Source: Eublepharis macularius
Taxonomy: Eukaryota; Chordata; Lepidosauria; Squamata; Eublepharidae
Length of the DNA stretch: 64,000 nt
Reading direction: 5' to 3'
NCBI RefSeq assembly: GCF_028583425.1
Contig: NC_072797.1
Location: forward strand, 18,634,001-18,698,000
In this document: piece after piece, positions 22,901 to 55,049 of the stretch
Numbering within the stretch: the first letter of the stretch is position 1
Layout of the letters: each line of letters begins with the position of its first letter
Notes under the pieces: model-generated
What the model saw: the letters and a program-made list of their open reading frames with translations, nothing else
What the model was told of the DNA's origin: nothing
Databases searched by the model: none
Made by a program: the position numbers and the translations under genes

Positions 22901-25900
22901 CCAGAGAACGATGGTTGTTGTGGGTTTTCCGGGCTATATTGCCGTGGTCTTGGCATTGTAGTTCCTGACGTTTTCGCCAGCAGCTGTGGCTGGCATCTTC
23001 AGAGGTGTAGCACCAAAAGACAGAGATCTCTCAGAGATCTCTCAGAGAGATCTCTGTCTTTTGGTGCTACACCTCTGAAGATGCCAGCCACAGCTGCTGG
23101 CGAAACGTCAGGAACTACAATGCCAAGACCACGGCAATACAGCCCGGAAAACCCACAACAACCAAATACAACCAAAATAATGCTTGGGTACACATGGTGC
23201 AGTACTATATTAATGTGGCCCAAGATCTACTATACTGTACTGTTATACTACTACTTGATACTATATTACTATCTACTATACTATACTAATATCTACTATA
23301 ATTAATGTGGCTCAGCTGTCCCCACACATGCTTTAAGACTCGCTCCATTTTTCATTTCTTCTGGAACTTCTGCTGCTACATCAGGGGGTGCTCCGGAGGG
23401 CACCTAACTTTCTGGAATGGCTTTCTGGAAAGCAAACTAGACTGCAGTAGGAAGGGGAAGTTCATAAATCAGCTCCCATGAATGCATTGAAAATCCCATC
23501 CCCAGTTCTTTGGATTCTAGGACCGGGCATTCGACCAGTCAAAAACAGATTTGTTCAACTGAAAGATCAACTGTTTCTAAAGGTTTATCAGAACGAAAAA
23601 AGAAAAACAACTAGTCTGGTAGTTCTCCTGATTCCAAAAGACGAAATAGGTAATTTTAATATTTCAAAGTTAACTTTAAAAAAAATCGTAATAATCTTAA
23701 TTATTTTTTGGATCAGTGATCCCTGTTGGTTGGTGACTTTTACCACTGATGACTCTTTGGACTCCCATTTGGAGATTTCTGCAGTTCTAGTAGATGCCCA
23801 AAAGAAGAAACTTTGCTGAGCTTGTCCCTGACTACTGTAGGGCGGGAGGGTCAAGCAGCCCCCGCTAAGAACAACACCAGAAGGAAACAAAAGAATTAAG
23901 CTACAACTTGCACAGTGACAATTCTTGACTTCATGGAATAGCTGACTGCAGTCAAATAGATAATCAGCTGTCAATATCTGACCTACGGTCATGCCAACCC
24001 TACTCGATCCCTGGAGCAGAGGTTTGCAATACAGCACAAGTATAATTCATTAGAATAATTTCCAAATAAAAGGTGCATACATATCCTTTTGGAATATCAG
24101 TATCCTCGTTGTTTCCAGGGTCGTTCTCTAGATGCTGTTTGATTTTCTCTTCTAGTCCCACTGCATCAGCACCTTGATACTGGTCAATTCGCACTTTGTT
24201 CCGGAAGAAAAGAAATGTCGGGGTGGCTGATATATTATTCGTTGCTGCTGTTCCCTAGCATGTGTTAAAAAAAAAGGCCTAAAGTTAACACTGTAGTCCA
24301 GATTTCAAAGTAAGGATGCTACACATCTCAAGTCATTGGTGTAAACATTAGTAATTACAACACATCTGGTCAAATCCCCAAAAGTTATTTTGGTTTTCAT
24401 TAAGACATAACATGAACATTGATCCTATGGAGAGAGAAGACTGCCAGTGCCTACATATTGGCATTTAAACTATGAATTATCAAAACCTTGAAAGCGATAA
24501 TAAATAAAGCAGTTAAGCAGATCACTGGCTGCTTCACAGGATATACACAAAAGAGAACGGTACCCCATATGGAAATGCAGCACTTGCTATGAAAACCTGA
24601 TAGCCAAAACCACATGTGTTTCCGAAGGCAGATGTTTATAGGAAAGACACACTGGATGCTGCTCTGAATGTTGTGCGTCTCTCAGAAAGAGATGCTCAAT
24701 ATAATTCTGATACTACTGTTTGATATGGCTTAGTTACCACCCTAGACTCAAGGGTCGAAATAAGTGTTGACCAGAGAACAAAGATGCCCATTGCCAGAAT
24801 AACATACTCTGCAGCAGAGGATTGCTGGCAAACCGATGTGCAAGTAGACTGAAAGTACTTCATATAAGGCAAGTAGCTTGTATAATAAGCCCGCACACAT
24901 TCGCGCAGTCAAGAGCTAATACAGAACTGTATCAACACATTACCTTTTTACTAACTTCACTTTAAAACCGAATAGCATAAAAACTGCAAGCTGGCATGAG
25001 AAGCAATGTACCTGCATCTAAACTACTTTAATTGAATGTTTCAAATATCTTATCGAGAATACGGATATGATTCCTTCTGTGCTTCTCTCTCCAAGCAGAA
25101 TACCTTGGGGCAGTAAGAAAGGAACAGAGTAACTTACTACATGTTTTTTTATTTGATAATACAAGCTGTATGGTATCGCTTGTATGATTAAATGCTGACC
25201 GTAATTCTGAATAATTATTTAAAAGTCTTTTAGCAAGACAAATGTATTGACTGGGCCAGACAGATATACAAGTTCAAGGCAAACAAGACTGGCTAACCAA
25301 AATCTAATATCTTAGACATGTTATCAATGGTATTTGTTATATATTATTGTATATGCTGATGCAAATTCTGATCCTAGATCGTAATAACAATAAACTGAAC
25401 TGAATATCTAATATAAGTTGGCATCAAGGAGACAGCTGAGAAAGGACACAAGAATTTTTGGGCATTGTATAACAAGTAGGGGTTGGAGCTACTGAGAAGC
25501 CGACTGAATTAGGACAGTCCGGATGATTTTGCAAGCCATGTGAGGTGAGCAGGTGAGAGAGGGTGTGGGTGAACTTAACCTGGGTCATCATAACCCATTA
25601 CATCAGCAAACTGATCACGTCTCCTTCTGGCATCTGCAGGACAGGGAAGGTAGGCTCCTGACAGGGTCAAGTTCATGCACAAAAATCAAGAGCGGAAAAA
25701 ATGGTACCAGCCACCCAAACTGCCTGGGCAGGGTTATCCAGCTTTATTCTTACAATCAATATAGGGTAAAAGAAAACTATTGATTCACGATCACATGAGG
25801 ATTTAAATCTGCATCTCGCCAGCCTAGCTCTCTAGCCAACGTACCCCATACAGGTCACACAGTGGTCAGACTGAAGTCAATGGTGGAATCAGTTGAGAAG

Positions 25901-28900: not shown

Positions 28901-31900
28901 GAATCCGTATGGACTGTTTTCATGTACTTTCCCATAGAGTCAGAAAAAGGAGCTAAATCTGTCCCCCACCTTACCTCTGATGCTGCAAGTGAGACAAGCT
29001 ATAGGGAAAAAAGTTTCCAACAACAGAAGGCAGTGAGGACCAGGGGGCAGCAGACAAGGTTCAGTTACCCTCACATATGCATGTCATTTTCTGTAAAGAT
29101 ACCCCGCCCCACTCAGGAGTAAAGCGCAGGTTTATGTCCTAGGAGGAAAGACTGAAGGAAATGGGTATGTTTAAAGTTCCTTTCTCCAGGTTGAAGGGAG
29201 ACATGATCACGCTCTTCAAAGATCTGAAAGGCTGCCATATGGAAGCAGGCAAAGACTTGTTCTCTGCTCCAGAGGACTAGATCAAACAAGCTCAAGTTAC
29301 AGGAGGCAGATTTGGGCTGAACCACTAGGAGAAACTTTCCAATAGCAAGCCCAGGTTGGTAATGGAACCAAGCACCCAGGCAAGGGCTCTCCCTCACTGG
29401 AGGTTTACAAGCAGAGGTTGGACAAACATCTATCCATTTTATTTTATTTTTATGTACTTTATTTATAACCCAACTTGCTTGCTGAGACTCAGGGAGGATC
29501 ACATGAGACAACCAACGCAATCAATGGTCTCTGAGGTCCCTTCCAACTGCAAGACTCTACATAAATATATGGAGCTCCCTTGCCACGCCCAATTTGTCCC
29601 AAGTGAACAGAACCATATGAAAGCCCTTGTTAAATAAAGCAGAATCCCAACTCCTTTTCTTACTGGTGTGGGGGGGGGGATATAAATAGCTATTTCTACC
29701 AATAACAAGGAGTAAGAAAAGTGAAACCAGTATATTAATTTCACAAGGAGCAATGAGGATATAAACACACACACAAAAAGCAAATTAGTTATTACTGGAA
29801 TAGAATTAGATGATACTATTTTGACTTAAAAGGCACTGCTATGGATGACTGAGGGCCAAGCTACACATGACGAATGACACTTGAACAGCAAGTGGATTGA
29901 GTGGAGGGCAAGTGAGCAGGGAGAAATACACTTGCTGTTCAAGTGTCATTCGTCATGTGTAGCTTGGCCCTGAGAAAGAGGAAAGTGAAAGAGGAGTCAG
30001 AGTGGATAGGCACTCTAACCGCGCAACCCTAGGTAGATAGTTTCAGGTGGTAGCTGTGCTGGTCTGTCGTAGAACAGCAAGATTCGGGTCTAGTAGCACC
30101 TTAAAGACGAACTAGATTGGCAGGGTATGAGCTTTCAAAGGAAACTGACTCTCAAAAAGCTCATACCCTGGAAATTTAGTTGGTCTTTAAGGTGCTACTG
30201 GACCTGGATCTTACCCTGTGCAGAGATGCTCCAGCGTAATTCCATTAAAGTCAATTGACTTAGACTGGAGTAACTCTGCACAGGATGGCATTGTAAGTGA
30301 CCTTAAGTATTAGAGGACCCCCCCCCCCCTTCAAAGAGTCATCTATGAACCTGGATAGCCACTGCTACCCGTCTTCCCCCACAACCTTTCAATCAATTTG
30401 ACATTCTCCCTGCCTCAGAACAAAAGCAGAACTCTGCTTTTGTTTCGTTGTTAACTGTTCATGGATAGTAGCTAGATGTGGAGGTTATAAAGTAGGAACA
30501 TTATTATCTGAGAGCCAGTTTGGTGTAGTGGTTAAGAGCGCGGGACTCTAATCTGGAGAGCCAGGTTTGATTCCCCACTCCTCCACTTGAAGCCAGCTGG
30601 GTGACTTTGGGCTAGTCACAGCTCTCTCAGGGCTCTCTAAGCCCCTCCCACCTCACAGGGTTTTTTTGTGGGGATAATAATAACATACTTTGTAAACCGC
30701 TCTGAGTGGGTGTTAAGTCATCCTGAAGGGCGGTATATAAATCAAATGTTGTTGTTGTTGTTATCTTGAAATACTAACTCAGCTATGTTTGGCAAAAATA
30801 CCTAAGTAGATTAAGACACATATCAGAGATGCCCATAGACAATCAGTTGTAAGATAAGGTTTTGTTTCTACAGAAAGCTAGGTCAAATTAATTTGTTCAA
30901 TAGGGTGCAACCAAAGTGATAAGGCACAGTCATGATGGCAAATCAGCGAGCATTAATAATTGAGGCTAATTAAGAATCTGAACGGAATCTGATCATAGCT
31001 TTGATGATGCTTTGCTCCATTGCCTGAGAATCAGACCCCCTACACTGGCTGAACATACCATGGAAAAGATCAAATCTCTCTGTGTGAGAAGAAGGGAAAC
31101 TTATTTATGTGGAATAACCCGGCAATACAGTGCTGTACAGATTAAAGGGGGGATCACATAAGGCCACGTTTTGAATATTAAATTAAAATAATTGTCAAAG
31201 AGGGACTTAAAATAAACTTGAGTTACATTATGAAGCAATGAAATTAACTTACAAGCTATTACCATTTGTTATACATCGCTAAGAAACTTATGCAAATATA
31301 AGCATTTGTTAAATAATATTCAAGAGGTTGCCAGGGAGGCAAGGACAGACAAAAGGAAGCCTTTCTTCACTTACGGAGTAATTAACTTGTGGAATTCACT
31401 GCCTCAGGAGGTACTGAAGGATGATAGCTTAACTGGCTTTATTTATGTAGAGATATGTAAACTCACTTTTCTCTCCAACAGGGGACCCAAAACAGACATA
31501 TTTTTTCCTCACAATAGCCTTGTAAGGTAGGGCTAGTCATTCAGCCTAGCCTAGCTAAATGACTAGCCTACCCTCAGTCAATGAGCTTCTTGGTAGAGTG
31601 GTCATAGATCCAGAGGAGTTAGCCGTGTTTGTCTGTAGTAGCAAAATCAAAAAGAGTCCAGTAGCACCTTTAAGTCTAACCAATTTTATTGTAGCATAAG
31701 CTTTCGAGAATCACAGTTCTCTTCATCAGATGCATCTCTTCGTCAGATGCATCTGACGAAGAGAACTGTGATTCTCGAAAGCTTATGCTACAATAAAATT
31801 GGTTAGTCTTAAAGGTGCTACTGGACTCTTTTTGATTTTGGTAGAGTGGAGATCTGAACCGGTGTCCTAGATGAGCATTCTCATCGCTACCCTGGTTTTG

Positions 31901-34900
31901 ATCCTAGCTGACTGACAACTTCCCTTTCCTTCCTAGAAGGTGGACTGCAACTGGTTTAATTCCTTGAGCAGGCGAAGAATATATGACATCATAGCTGCTC
32001 AACATATCATGCCCGGTTCAGTCATCATACTTCTAGAATCTGTGTGGAGATCCTCCAAGGAGAAGGAAGGAGAGGAGCTCAGAGTCCAGCATGACTTTTA
32101 AACTGGACCACAGGCTTCACTGCCACAAGTACAACCCAAAGAAGATTAGCACAGTTGCGAGATTTTCTGCATTTGTGACTTTCCAAATACATATCCTTTG
32201 ACAAACTATCCCTCCCTTACAATGATGAAAGAGCATATTCCAAGCAGGAAGCGTGGTGATTAGTCACAGTGTATGAATGAAACCAGACAAGAGAGTCTAG
32301 GGTGTGAGTTTTGTTACTAAAGGAAGAGTCACCATTACTAAATGCTATATATAGGGAAGATACAGGGTAGATACAGAAGATGCTGTATATAGGGTAGATA
32401 CAGAAGAACCCAAGGAGAATGAGACAGCCCAGGACAGAAAGTTGAAATTGAATCAAAGAGACATGAACCTAGACAGTCATGGATTTACGGGGCAAGTTGT
32501 TCTCATTTTCCTTACCCCGATTGTCTATATGCAAAATTGATTGAACAGCAATTCAGTCTATGGTAACATTTCAAAATTTAGTTGCAGTGGAGGAAATTAT
32601 GTGGTGCTCACTCGTCAACATGTGACGAGTGAGGTACCTGCACTGTGCAGTGTGCTGAGAATGCACTGAGCTAATGAGATGCATGCTTGTCAAAATGTGA
32701 CCACCACAGTAAAGTGAACTGTCTGAGGCTGACCTCACCTGCTGCCATGAAGGGACAACCAACAAGACATGGCCGAAGGAGTGCAGTTGCTCTACAGACA
32801 GTTATTCCTCATTTACAGTCATAAAGGAGCACAAAGCAGATTGATAAATGGGAAGGCAGTCCTTCAAGAATATGGATCCCAGACCAAGAACGGTTTTAAT
32901 GGCACCCTGAATCGAACCCAGAAGCATACTGGCAGATGGTGCATTAAACAAGCAGACTGCCACATTTTGTGCACAAATCCCAGTTTCATGGGCACGTTAC
33001 AAAATGAAAACTGGAGAGAGATTACTATTTTCTCCCAGGGAGTCCATTCTACTAAGGGCTGAGCTTCTCTACCCGCTCAGCTAAGGAGCTGCACCTGACT
33101 CAGCGTGCCTTGACCTGAGCTTATCCTCTAGATCTGTAGGAAGCTGGCTAAGGCCAACTTTGTACAGAAACAGGTTGACAGTCTACAAGCAGCAGAAGTT
33201 TCCCTATTTGAAATATCTGGCTGAAAAACACTGTTTATTATTATTCAATTCATTTACACCCCACTTCCCTCCCGCAGTGGGGGCCCCAAATGGCTTACAA
33301 CATTCCTCACTGTATCCTCACAATAACCTTGTGAGGTAGGTATGACTGAGTGAGAGCTTGTGATTGGCCCAGATTGTGATTGGCAGAGTGGGGGATCCAA
33401 ACCCAGGCCTTCTAGATGCGAGGATGACACTGTCACCAATACACCATGCTGGCTCTCTGCGACAGCAGGAGAGCCCTTTTGTCTTACCTATATAAGACTC
33501 ATCCCCCTTCCCCTTCACATAAATGAATAAAATACCGGAAAACATTTATTACAAGCTATGTAGGCAGTTTTTAGTCCAATATGTTGTATGGACAAAGGAG
33601 AAACTCATTGAGATGGGACAGACAACTGACCAAGGATGGATCGTAAGACGAGCCCTTCTGGATCAGACCCAAAGGTCCACAGCACCCACCGTTCTTTTTC
33701 CAACAGTGGACAACCCACACGAGCAGAGCATGATGGCAACAGCCCTCAGCCACTTTAGCTCCACAGCAGACATGTTCAGAGGTACTCAGCTCCAACATCG
33801 CTAATAACCACTGATAGATAAATCCAGGGAGGATGGGAGAAATATTCTAAAGGTATTCAATGCAGTGGCCATCGCCATAGCATGCGGCAAGAAATTCCTT
33901 CAGTTAATTATACATTGCACAAATAAGTACTCTTGAAGAGAGAGAGACAGAACGTTATCTCACCACCCATACTCTTCTACATAGTTATGGACAATATAAC
34001 CACCCATACTCTTCTACATAGTTATGACTTATATAAACAACAAATATAACTCCCATTCAGTTTCACAGATCTCCATCTAGTCTGCAGAGAGGCCAAATTG
34101 CAAGACATGGTAAAAGCAGCTCAGTTTTAAGTGAAAAGTAATGTGCCTTAGAGTCAGGAATCTTAATGTCTTAATTCTAGTCCAGGGGTACCATAAAGAC
34201 CAATACAATTTTCCAAGAAAATTTTCATGAGTCTAAAGGCCACTGTTAGGGAATTTCTATGACCCCTATTCTAAAAGACCTATGTATGAGCATTTGTTGG
34301 AGTTGACCTGTAACACAGAAGGCAAAAGTTTTTTCTTGTCAGCATATTTCTTCTGACACTGTGGTTAAGTAAGGTTAGAAAGCCCTATTGCAAGGACAGT
34401 ATCTCTCTTCTCCAGAGGAGTTAGCCATGTTAGTCTGTAGTAGCAAAATCAAAAAGAGTCCAATAGCACCTTTAAAACTAACCAACTTTATTGTAGCATA
34501 AGCTTTCGAGAATCACAGCTCTCTTCGTCAGATGCAACTTTATGCTACAATAAAGTTGGTTAATCTTAAAGGTGCTACTGGGCTCTTTTTGATTTTATCT
34601 CTCTTGTTTTGACTTTGTTTGGACTTGAATAAGCACCCTCTCAGGAAGACACCCAAGATTCCTTTGTGGCACCAGACATGAGAGTAATCTTGTCAATCAG
34701 GCCTGTTTTGTGCCATGTCTCCTGAAGAATTGTGTGTTTCTAGTTTTGTATAACAATTTTATCTCCTTTCTGTACACAGTTAACTTTGGAAAGTATGTAA
34801 GATTCTCTGTTATGCTGATTTTTTATGCATATGTTGGAATATGGCATAGCATCTGGGTTTTATTGTAAATAAAGCTAATTAATTCTTTATGGATCACTGT

Positions 34901-39410: not shown

Positions 39411-39780
39411 TGTTATGTTCATTGGTAGTCCTAAACTGTGTTTTTAAACTTATGTTTTTATTCATTTTATTATTGTATTGTCGAAGGCTTTCACGGCCGG
39501 AGAACGATGGTTGTTGTGGGTTTTCCGGGCTGTATTGCCGTGGTCTTGGCATTGTAGTTCCTGACGTTTCGCCAGCAGCTGTGGCTAGCAGCTGTGGCTG
39601 GCCACAGCTGCTGGCGAAACGTCAGGAACTACAATGCCAAGACCACGGCAATACAGCCCGGAAAACCCACAACAACCATCATTTTATTATTGTTATTTTA
39701 TTTATATTGTAATCTACCTTGAGTTCCTGTAAGATAGAAAGGCAGCTAATAAATGATTTCAATAGCTTAATAAAAATAAA
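39411..39780 (+). mobile_element. LINE 3' tail interrupted by a foldback repeat
   Basis: TTTTTATTCATTTTATTATT lies before the insert. ATATTGTAATCTACCTTGAG, then GGCAGCTAATAAATGA and an AATAAAAATAAA tail, follow it. Confidence 0.5.
39476..39678. mobile_element. Penelope-like foldback repeat, family 1, copy 2 (203 bp)
   Basis: A perfect 14-bp duplication TCATTTTATTATTG lies at 39462-39475 and 39679-39692. The leader TATTGTCGAAGGCTTTCACG, then GCCGGAGAACGATGG, is present only on the left. The arms are about 80 bp and meet at GCAGCTGTGGCTAGCAGCTG. The tip is shorter than in copy 1. Confidence 0.85.
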
Positions 39781-42296: not shown

Positions 42297-42512
42297 ACAT
42301 AGATCCTGAGAAGTTATCCACGTTAGTCTGTAGTTGCAAAATAGTAGAGTCCAATAGCACCTTTAAGATTAACCAAATTTATTGTAGCATAAGCTTTCAA
42401 GAACCACTGCTTTCTTCCATGCATCTGACGAAGAGACCTGTGGCTCTCGAAAGTTTATGCTACATTAAAGTTGGTTAGTCTTAAAGGTGCTACTGGACTC
42501 TACTATTTTACA
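42297..42512. mobile_element. Penelope-like foldback repeat, family 2, copy C
   Basis: A leader (ACATAGATCCTGAGAAGTTA, then TCCACGTTAGTCTGTAG) is followed by two arms. The core CTGACGA lies at 42425-42431, GAAA at 42449-42452, and stem III AG(T)/GCT with a TTAT loop follows. No clear target duplication was seen. Confidence 0.7.
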
Positions 42513-43504: not shown

Positions 43505-43562
43505 TGAACTTTTGAGTGTCCAAGCTCCCTTATGTAGTATGTACATGGAATGTGTATGTAGT

Positions 43563-43775
43563 ATAGCAGGATTTGAGTCCAGTGGCATCTTAGAGACCAA
43601 CAGGATTTTCAGGGTATAAGCTTTCCAGGGTCAGAGCTCCCTTCTTCTCTTGTTGTCTGAAGAAGGGAGCTCTGACCCTGGAAAGCTTACACCCGGAAAA
43701 TCTTGTTGGTCTCTGAGGTGCCACTGGATTCAAATCCTGCTGTTCTACTGCAGACCAACATGGCTACCCACCTAT
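43563..43775. mobile_element. Penelope-like foldback repeat, family 3, best copy
   Basis: Arms of about 85 bp start AGCAGGATTTGAGTCCAGTG. The leader is on the right (GTTCTACTGCAGACCAACAT, then GGCTACCCACCT). The hammerhead-like core has CTGAAGA at 43657-43663 and GAAA at 43681-43684. Confidence 0.75.
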
Positions 43776-45793: not shown

Positions 45794-46053
45794 CAGAGCT
45801 TTTTTTCAGCTGGAAGGCGGTGGAACGGAGTTCCGGAACCTCTTGAAAATGGTCACATGGCTGGTGGCCCCGCCCCCTGATCTCCAGACAGAGGGGAGTT
45901 TAGATTGCCCTCCGTGCTGCCGAGCGGCGCAGAGGGCAATCTCAACTCCCCTCTGTGTGGAGATCAGGGGGCGGGGCCACCAGCCATGTGACCATTTTCC
46001 CCAAGGGCAACCCACTGAGTTCCACCACCTTTTTTCCTAGAAAAAAAGCCCTG
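45794..46053. mobile_element. hAT-like foldback MITE, copy 1 (260 bp)
   Basis: The ends CAGAGCTTTTTTTC and GAAAAAAAGCCCTG are inverted. The long internal palindrome reads TGGTCACATGGCTGGTGGCC, then CCGCCCCCTGATCTCCAGAC, and its reverse. Flanking 8-mers agree only in part, so the target duplication is decayed. Confidence 0.8.
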
Positions 46054-54498: not shown

Positions 54499-54722
54499 GT
54501 TTCCATGGTCGTAGATCCAGAGGAATTAGCCGTGTTAATCTGTAGTTGCAAATAGTAAAAAGTTCAGTAGCACCTTTAAGACTGACCAACTTTATTGAGG
54601 CATACGCTTTCAAGAACCACAGCTCTCTTCATTACATCTGATGAAGAGAGCTGTGGTTCTCAAAGGCTTATGCCTCAATAAAGTCGGTTAGTCTTAAAGG
54701 TGCTACTGGACTTTTTACTATT
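54499..54722. mobile_element. Penelope-like foldback repeat, family 2, copy D
   Basis: TTGTAGCAA flanks it at 54490-54498 and 54723-54731. The leader GTAGATCCAGAGGAATTAGC, then CGTGTTAATCTGTAG, is on the left. Two arms follow, with CTGATGA at 54638-54644 in the right arm and a decayed GAAA box. Confidence 0.75.
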
Positions 54723-55049
54723 TTGTAGCAACTTTGCCACTTAATTGTAAAACTGTACTGTAGGAACCAAGACCACTAGGAAGTGCCTCTTCTTCTTGAG
54801 GGTTTGAGGTATATCAACTGTAGCTGCGGAAATCAGCTTTGGTTTCCAGCATTCTTAAAGAACCCATGGATGGACTTCAGAGTAGTCCATGTAGAGTTCT
54901 TATTGATTAATCTCAGAGTAGACAACTGCTGTTTGAAAAAGCAGAATTGATCACAATATTTTGCTCTAAATGTTAAAGCTGTTTTTATCCTGCTCTCAGT
55001 AACAGTAATAAATAACATGGTATGATTGAAAGGGAAGGAGGGGCTCTGC

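Follow-up and report, generated by a model that had tools for sequence, protein, structure and literature searches.

The window, as the whole stretch analysed here is called, comprises 64,000 nucleotides of contig NC_072797.1 of Eublepharis macularius (positions 18,634,001 to 18,698,000), and it holds a short run of letters that resembles the core of a hammerhead ribozyme within a foldback repeat. The locus raises the question of whether these letters amount to a hammerhead, which bases form its stems, and what kind of element carries it. Our reading, to which we give a probability of roughly 0.82, is that the motif is a minimal type I hammerhead without stem III, situated at the 5′ edge of dispersed 3′-end fragments of a Penelope-like element (PLE).

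Copy A, where the motif was first noticed, makes up one of the two arms of a head-to-head insertion (31602–31837) that has a 12-bp target-site duplication; since TTGGTAGAGTGG flanks both sides, the two arms belong to one insertion. The inverted-repeat arms at 31639–31737 and 31745–31843 are 97% complementary. The features of this insertion and of the other copies in the window are as follows, with the basis of each in brackets where one applies.

31590–31601, no strand: left target-site duplication TTGGTAGAGTGG (end-word comparison and letters read)
31602–31734, minus: minus arm with full tail (own core CTGATGA..GAAA at 31729–31702)
31747–31837, plus: plus arm (copy A), without tail (pair analysis)
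31749–31752, plus: stem I 5′ strand, GCAT (free fold, pair counts)
31753–31759, plus: core box CTGACGA, C3 to A9 (letters read)
31760, plus: extra A after the core box, ahead of stem II (skipping it improves stem II pairing)
31761–31765, plus: stem II 5′ strand, GAGAA (free fold, pair counts)
31772–31776, plus: stem II 3′ strand, TTCTC (free fold, pair counts)
31777–31780, plus: core box GAAA (letters read)
31780–31783, plus: AGCT palindrome at the place of stem III (AGCT in 31 of 40 copies)
31784, plus: H17, a T, with the predicted cut between 31784 and 31785 (follows from the register)
31785–31788, plus: stem I 3′ strand, ATGC (free fold, pair counts)
31838–31849, no strand: right target-site duplication TTGGTAGAGTGG (end-word comparison and letters read)
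34496–34535, minus: second hammerhead copy, in foldback 34411–34596 with target-site duplication TATCTCTCTT
42421–42460, plus: copy C hammerhead, in foldback 42298–42504 with no clear target-site duplication
43653–43774, plus: copy of the related family F1 (CTGAAGA, GAAAGCTTACACC), foldback partner at 43558–43647
54634–54673, plus: decayed hammerhead copy (ACAT for GCAT, AAAG for GAAA), in foldback 54508–54730 with a possible target-site duplication TTGTAGCAA

The core and its stems

The letters of copy A, from CTGACGA through the extra A, GAGAA and TTCTC to GAAA, stand where the original prediction had placed them. Its description of copy C held in part: CTGACGA (42425–42431) and GAAA (42449–42452) are found, but the compensation claimed for stem II is not a clean one. 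The fifth pair, A-T in copy A, is a C.C mismatch in copy C (42437/42444), the sole gain over copy A is a sixth pair (C42438-G42443), and copy C has AGTT where copy A has AGCT.

A loose pattern of the two boxes (CTGANGA-N{6,30}-GAAA) matches 14 times in the window against a mean of 5.7 in shuffled sequence, 1 of 100 shuffles attaining 14, and five of the 14 matches (31702, 31753, 34504, 42425 and 43657) share a 17-nt spacing. A third family (22972–23002 and 23075–23105 in the window) has the identical layout with other stem letters. For a wider comparison, 69 distinct copies were drawn from the window, from 30 loci at one end of contig C1 (segmental duplicates included) and from 20 spaced 10-kb stretches of C1. 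It was possible to place 64 of them; 44 have at most two mismatches in the core boxes CUGANGA and GAAA and were kept, 40 being distinct over the motif. These 40 were found by homology and were not picked for pairing; the base at H17 is T in 36, C in three and G in one.

Stem I, which had been described as not evident, is present in copy A: GCAT at 31749–31752 and ATGC at 31785–31788 directly flank the core, adjoining C3 and H17 exactly; the earlier statement is not confirmed. When 31747–31794 is folded without constraint, GCAU/AUGC forms as stem I and GAGAA/UUCUC as stem II. The energy of the fold is unremarkable (z −0.82, 39 of 200 shuffles folding at least as well), the values for copy C being z −1.41 and 22 of 200. 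Stem II pairs in 34, 37, 33, 36, 37 and 17 of the 40 copies when the extra base is skipped, compared with 13, 35, 9, 36, 29 and 2 when it is set directly after A9. The idea that GCAT beside CTGA is a mere palindromic joint of the foldback was rejected, since copies preceded by a pLTR carry GCAT too.

Covariation, which the original prediction had named as a test of its stems, is present across copies: some of it lies in stem II, and in both stems there are pairs that change on either side. In an alignment of 14 rows, hand-picked for diversity, the GCAT/ATGC register together with stem II has 86.3% of its cells paired. Both sides change in five of the 11 pairs (14 of 500 shuffles attain five), and the covariation score is 0.326 as against 0.173 in shuffles (0 of 500) and 0.013–0.115 for slid partners; further pair types are no more numerous than in shuffles (300 of 500). 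With no structure supplied, RNAalifold pairs columns 4–6 with 39–41 (stem I) and column 9 with 36, and finds stem II; the core letters are nearly constant in this alignment while both stems vary. The third pair of stem I is C-G in F2, the family of copy A, and U-A in F1, a change that is a real double change but belongs to few events counted many times: most of the covariation lies between subfamilies, so that independent events are few.

Genome-wide counts were made over 2.24 Gb in 72 contigs. The GCAT..ATGC form, searched as GCATCTGANGAAN{8,20}GAAAGCTYATGC, matches 30,179 times (reversed control, 0), GGTAT..ATACC 805 times, and the swapped combination GGTAT..ATGC 86 times; since the swapped form still pairs by a U.G wobble, its count tells us that the letters of each form keep together and says nothing on how rare broken stems are. 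Stem II was compared with shuffles in 59 F1 and 23 F2 strings, typed by hand from lists of genome matches; no fewer than six F1 strings of odd length, and several from F2, fall outside this set. Its second pair, seen as U-A, G-U and A-U, is formed in 52 of the 59 F1 strings against 31.7 in shuffles (0 of 2000), and with F1 and F2 pooled, pairs 2 (0 of 2000) and 5 (30 of 2000) go beyond shuffles. Pairs 1, 3, 5 and 6 show no excess in the 59 F1 strings, nor does any stem II pair in the 23 F2 strings alone.

Hammerhead class and catalysis

The hammerhead models of Rfam find no match in the window at the gathering score, and at E ≤ 10 none in the 101-nt monomer or in six loci, of which five have an intact core. 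By the measure that the original prediction had set for itself, a covariance-model hit, this counts against a canonical hammerhead, and the motif is accordingly not a canonical three-stem hammerhead. The miss probably reflects the absent helix III and the extra base, and because the models missed every scanned copy, repeats of this kind may stay unannotated. MicroRNA-precursor models, the bulk of those that fit the foldback at E ≤ 10, were set aside, as they fall below the gathering score and fit perfect inverted repeats.

Of what makes up a type I hammerhead, the motif has the core boxes CUGANGA and GAAA and a stem I that adjoins C3 and H17. Its stem II is set off from A9 by one extra base, and in place of a stem III within one molecule AGCT alone remains. 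The combination of stems I and II, no helix III, and a position in a PLE pLTR is that of the minimal PLE hammerhead. Minimal type I hammerheads without helix III occur in PLEs, according to the available parts of PMC6155905 and PMC7761336, and the motif fits the helix-III-less PLE hammerheads that those parts and PMC11167929 have already put in print. The minimal PLE hammerheads of Cervera and de la Pena (2014) and of Lunse, Weinberg and Breaker (2017), as later papers cite them, likewise have a hammerhead core in PLE pLTRs and no helix III, and they are thought to act as dimers; the likeness concerns this described layout. One of the titles cited by PMC6155905 concerns a viroid hammerhead with an additional core nucleotide, so that the inserted base has a precedent at least by title. 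What had been proposed in general terms, a hammerhead-type core with an extra base ahead of stem II in Penelope-like repeats, is supported.

It is improbable, although this alternative survives better than the others, that the motif is a plain, non-catalytic hairpin which the PLE retains within a protein-binding or promoter element. The lack of an Rfam hammerhead match and the modest folding z-scores would suit such a hairpin, as would the copy starts, which are not piled up at the cut in 52 local copies, and the report from Anolis that the ribozyme is inactive unless protein is present and that RNA-seq ends are missing from the cut site (PMC11167929). A hairpin of this sort sits poorly, however, with core letters that stay near constant while both stems change, and with a third family (22972–23002, 23075–23105) that keeps the layout with other stem letters. 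In the relative PAc, moreover, C3G and G8C abolish cleavage and the double change partly restores it (PMC11167929).

The alternative stem register

The original prediction had drawn the stems differently, with a stem III of AGC/GCT closed by a TTAT loop, a cut after A31790, and a stem I lost through truncation. The letters themselves are as given (AGC-TTAT-GCT at 31780–31789, followed by A31790), and the three stem III pairs form in 31, 38 and 30 of the 40 copies and in 30, 32 and 29 of the 33 F2-query copies; combined with the shared stem II, the whole structure pairs 84.0% of its cells on the same 14 rows, and its covariation score there, 0.281, is mostly owed to that shared stem. Against this, stem III forms in 1, 6 and 1 of the seven F1-query copies, and as a helix it has 73.2% of cells paired compared with 82.6% for the GCAT/ATGC stem I in the same alignment. 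Nor does the stem I of that register pair: its four pairs form in 4, 2, 9 and 29 of the 40 copies, whereas those of the GCAT/ATGC register form in 32, 33, 32 and 28, and sliding the partner by one to three columns leaves at most two of the four high. In two loci with a pLTR upstream (L003 and L021), the bases before the core are, by reading, unpaired with those after an A31790-type cut. The seven F1-query copies form the GCAT/ATGC stem I pairs in 5, 3, 5 and 1 cases; they are decayed and poorly paired in both registers, and thus prove neither.

Free folding, RNAalifold and the pair counts together favour the GCAT/ATGC register, and we consider the earlier one very unlikely. Its AGC-TTAT-GCT hairpin, which forms in F2, fails in F1 and is not the minimum free energy fold, finds no support, and neither does a cut after A31790. 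The favoured register leaves copy A no intramolecular stem III and puts the predicted cut after T31784; AGCT at 31780–31783 could pair with the AGCT of a second copy.

The repeat as part of a Penelope-like element

The repeat is the 3′ end of a PLE. A reading frame in L051 contains RVT_1 (1.4e-9) and GIY-YIG (1.5e-8), and tblastn finds it in L020 (9.8e-39) and L021 (6.9e-24), loci separated by 52 bases outside the sequence compared. In L021 the frame, which has two internal stops, ends at about 1127 and is followed by the pLTR, the motif (1452–1490) and a tail to about 1577. Because the repeat follows the RT/GIY-YIG frame in L020/L021, the family is assigned to the PLEs, whose marks are thus seen here: RT and GIY-YIG in one frame (with stops) and then the repeat, and inverted pLTRs with one tail and a short target-site duplication. 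L011 carries the C-terminal part of the frame ahead of the same pLTR as L021; in L024 and L027 the frame match lies on the other strand and not ahead of that pLTR, and inside the window the L051 frame has no match. At least 78 GIY-YIG matches at E ≤ 0.001 occur in the genome, 150 of 3,593 candidates having been scored. By reading, the pLTR of L021 also appears to contain, at 1165–1230, an older foldback of two decayed motif copies, placed after the ORF and ahead of the younger copy.

Exact matches to a 28-base word of the repeat number 41,815 across the genome (20,722 + 21,093; reversed control, 0). The exact pattern was used for the counts, as the DNA similarity search of the genome skips common words and gave nothing. 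By a greedy rule, 50 of 77 sampled hits fall into head-to-head pairs, and a stricter rule (hit score ≥28, gap <3000, same locus) yields 18 pairs, from the window at 31601–54730 and from L005–L049. The tail is on one arm only in 17 of the 18, the exception being L015, a tail-only pair with the tail on both arms; the tail-less arm stops some 30–50 nt earlier than the tailed one. An end word of at least nine bases (9–14) is shared in nine of the 18 pairs, as against seven of 306 mismatched combinations, and the remaining nine have no clear target-site duplication. Two of the 18 (L017 and L030) seem to represent a single event that was later duplicated; pairs whose arms fall in separate loci (L002/L003, L020/L021) are outside the 18. 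The window also holds, at 45845–45999, a 76-nt inverted repeat, 93% complementary, of another G+C-rich family.

Among the closest described systems is PAc (Poseidon of Anolis carolinensis), whose protein cuts and extends both strands, with reverse transcription starting at two internal sites that bound the “tail”; its hammerhead, of stems I and II, is cleaved with the assistance of the protein and is dispensable for insertion in vitro (PMC11167929). PAc shares with the gecko element an RT and GIY-YIG frame, a pLTR, a hammerhead with stems I and II, and a tail, which in PAc lies between the two RT start sites; the PAc ORF starts at stem II (PMC11167929). The one-tailed head-to-head pairs fit the PAc scheme of insertion. 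Penelope of Adineta vaga, according to the accessible text of PMC3846280, likewise has inverted pLTRs and palindromic head-to-head junctions, there explained by self-priming, together with target-site duplications of 8–10 bp and a 31-bp tail that is optional on one inverted pLTR, so the arrangement was already known. The word hammerhead is absent from that text, whereas many of the insertions sampled here are short ribozyme-plus-tail pairs.

That the family is a non-autonomous retrozyme, moving as a small circular RNA bounded by hammerheads, is most unlikely: one 52-bp, ten-copy tandem array of the motif (L052) and the type I hammerhead tandem repeats of animals in the available part of PMC7229834 speak for it, but the metazoan non-LTR retrozymes described there are tandem units of about 150–450 bp, their usual form being non-coding, whereas the gecko repeats in our sample are mostly dispersed, in head-to-head and one-tailed pairs, and the identical motif adjoins the frame of a coding PLE.

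The array itself, at L052:631–1152 (C1:10494900–10496700), consists of ten head-to-tail 52-bp units, each of one hammerhead and a 12-nt linker. The unit corresponds to element positions 1–52, with TTG shared at the joint, and the array lies within one foldback arm. It looks like a template-switch product and could yield 52-nt RNAs.

Copy starts and a possible mechanism

The review PMC7761336 describes the function of PLE hammerheads as unknown. The 30,179 pattern matches make the question countable, as starts must pile up at one base if cleavage precedes insertion. Among 52 local copies, 31 extend to positions 1–4, at the motif's 5′ edge; a single one starts at position 37, two bases before the predicted cut, and none at position 39, the predicted cut itself, so that insertions starting at the ribozyme cut are not borne out locally. 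Genome-wide, 87 starts fall at position 39 compared with 54 at position 40 (two-sided binomial p 0.007, with one neighbour as yardstick), and the 87 include no fewer than three head-to-head pairs, so that they are not all independent; the excess is suggestive only, a lead and not a result. Of the 44 motif copies, 31 have no recognisable pLTR word upstream, nine of these in L052, and 13 have one (L028 being a false call); many of the 31 begin with ATGCAT or TTGCAT. The 31 of 52 sampled copies that keep the ribozyme whole or nearly so must have had an uncut template, which suggests that most template RNA stays uncut and possibly starts at the ATGCAT or TTGCAT edge of the motif.

A scheme of insertion can be taken over, by inference, from the published PAc work (PMC11167929). 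The PLE protein would cut both strands and, on each of them, begin reverse transcription from either of two sites inside its RNA; the two cDNAs would run back through the ribozyme and then be joined head to head. The ribozyme would cut weakly, at AGCUU^AUGC, either with help from the protein or as a dimer in which AGCU pairs with the AGCU of another copy. In kcal/mol, the predicted double hammerhead compares with two singles as follows: −11.7 vs 2 × −6.4 for copy A, −2.2 vs 2 × −5.5 for copy C, −22.3 vs 2 × −11.7 for the GC form of F2, −24.7 vs 2 × −12.8 for F1, and −24.3 vs 2 × −11.9 for the third family. The double form gains little or no stability over the two singles, and in all five a plain duplex is predicted to be stabler (−17.5, −25.1, −33.0, −34.6 and −36.5, in the same order). 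Action as a dimer of AGCU-paired copies is thus possible in these models.

One could go further and take the edge stops, the starts at the cut site and the 52-bp array jointly as a record of how the ribozyme behaves, a reading that we regard as doubtful. That many of the sampled short copies end at the hammerhead's 5′ border would then mean that their template RNA started at that point, and of the 41,815 exact tail copies a large fraction would represent run-off “strong-stop” cDNAs made from the first internal start site. The small excess of starts at the predicted cut would be a trace of germ-line cleavage, and the array of 52-bp units would be a template-switch product whose RNA could be cut to 52-nt units or circles.

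Two further arrangements deserve mention. The third family forms foldbacks at 22912–23164 and 39503–39683 of the window, with the letters CCT CTGAAGA T GCCAGC..GCTGGC GAAA CG T C AGG, and has an ACGT palindrome where F2 has AGCT; the full core is present at 22972–23002 and 23075–23105, and the copy at 39503 is without the CTGA box. On contig C2 (6456320–6457562), F1 hammerheads recur at 98-bp steps (6456320, 6456418 and 6456516, then 6456712), as seen from coordinates only.
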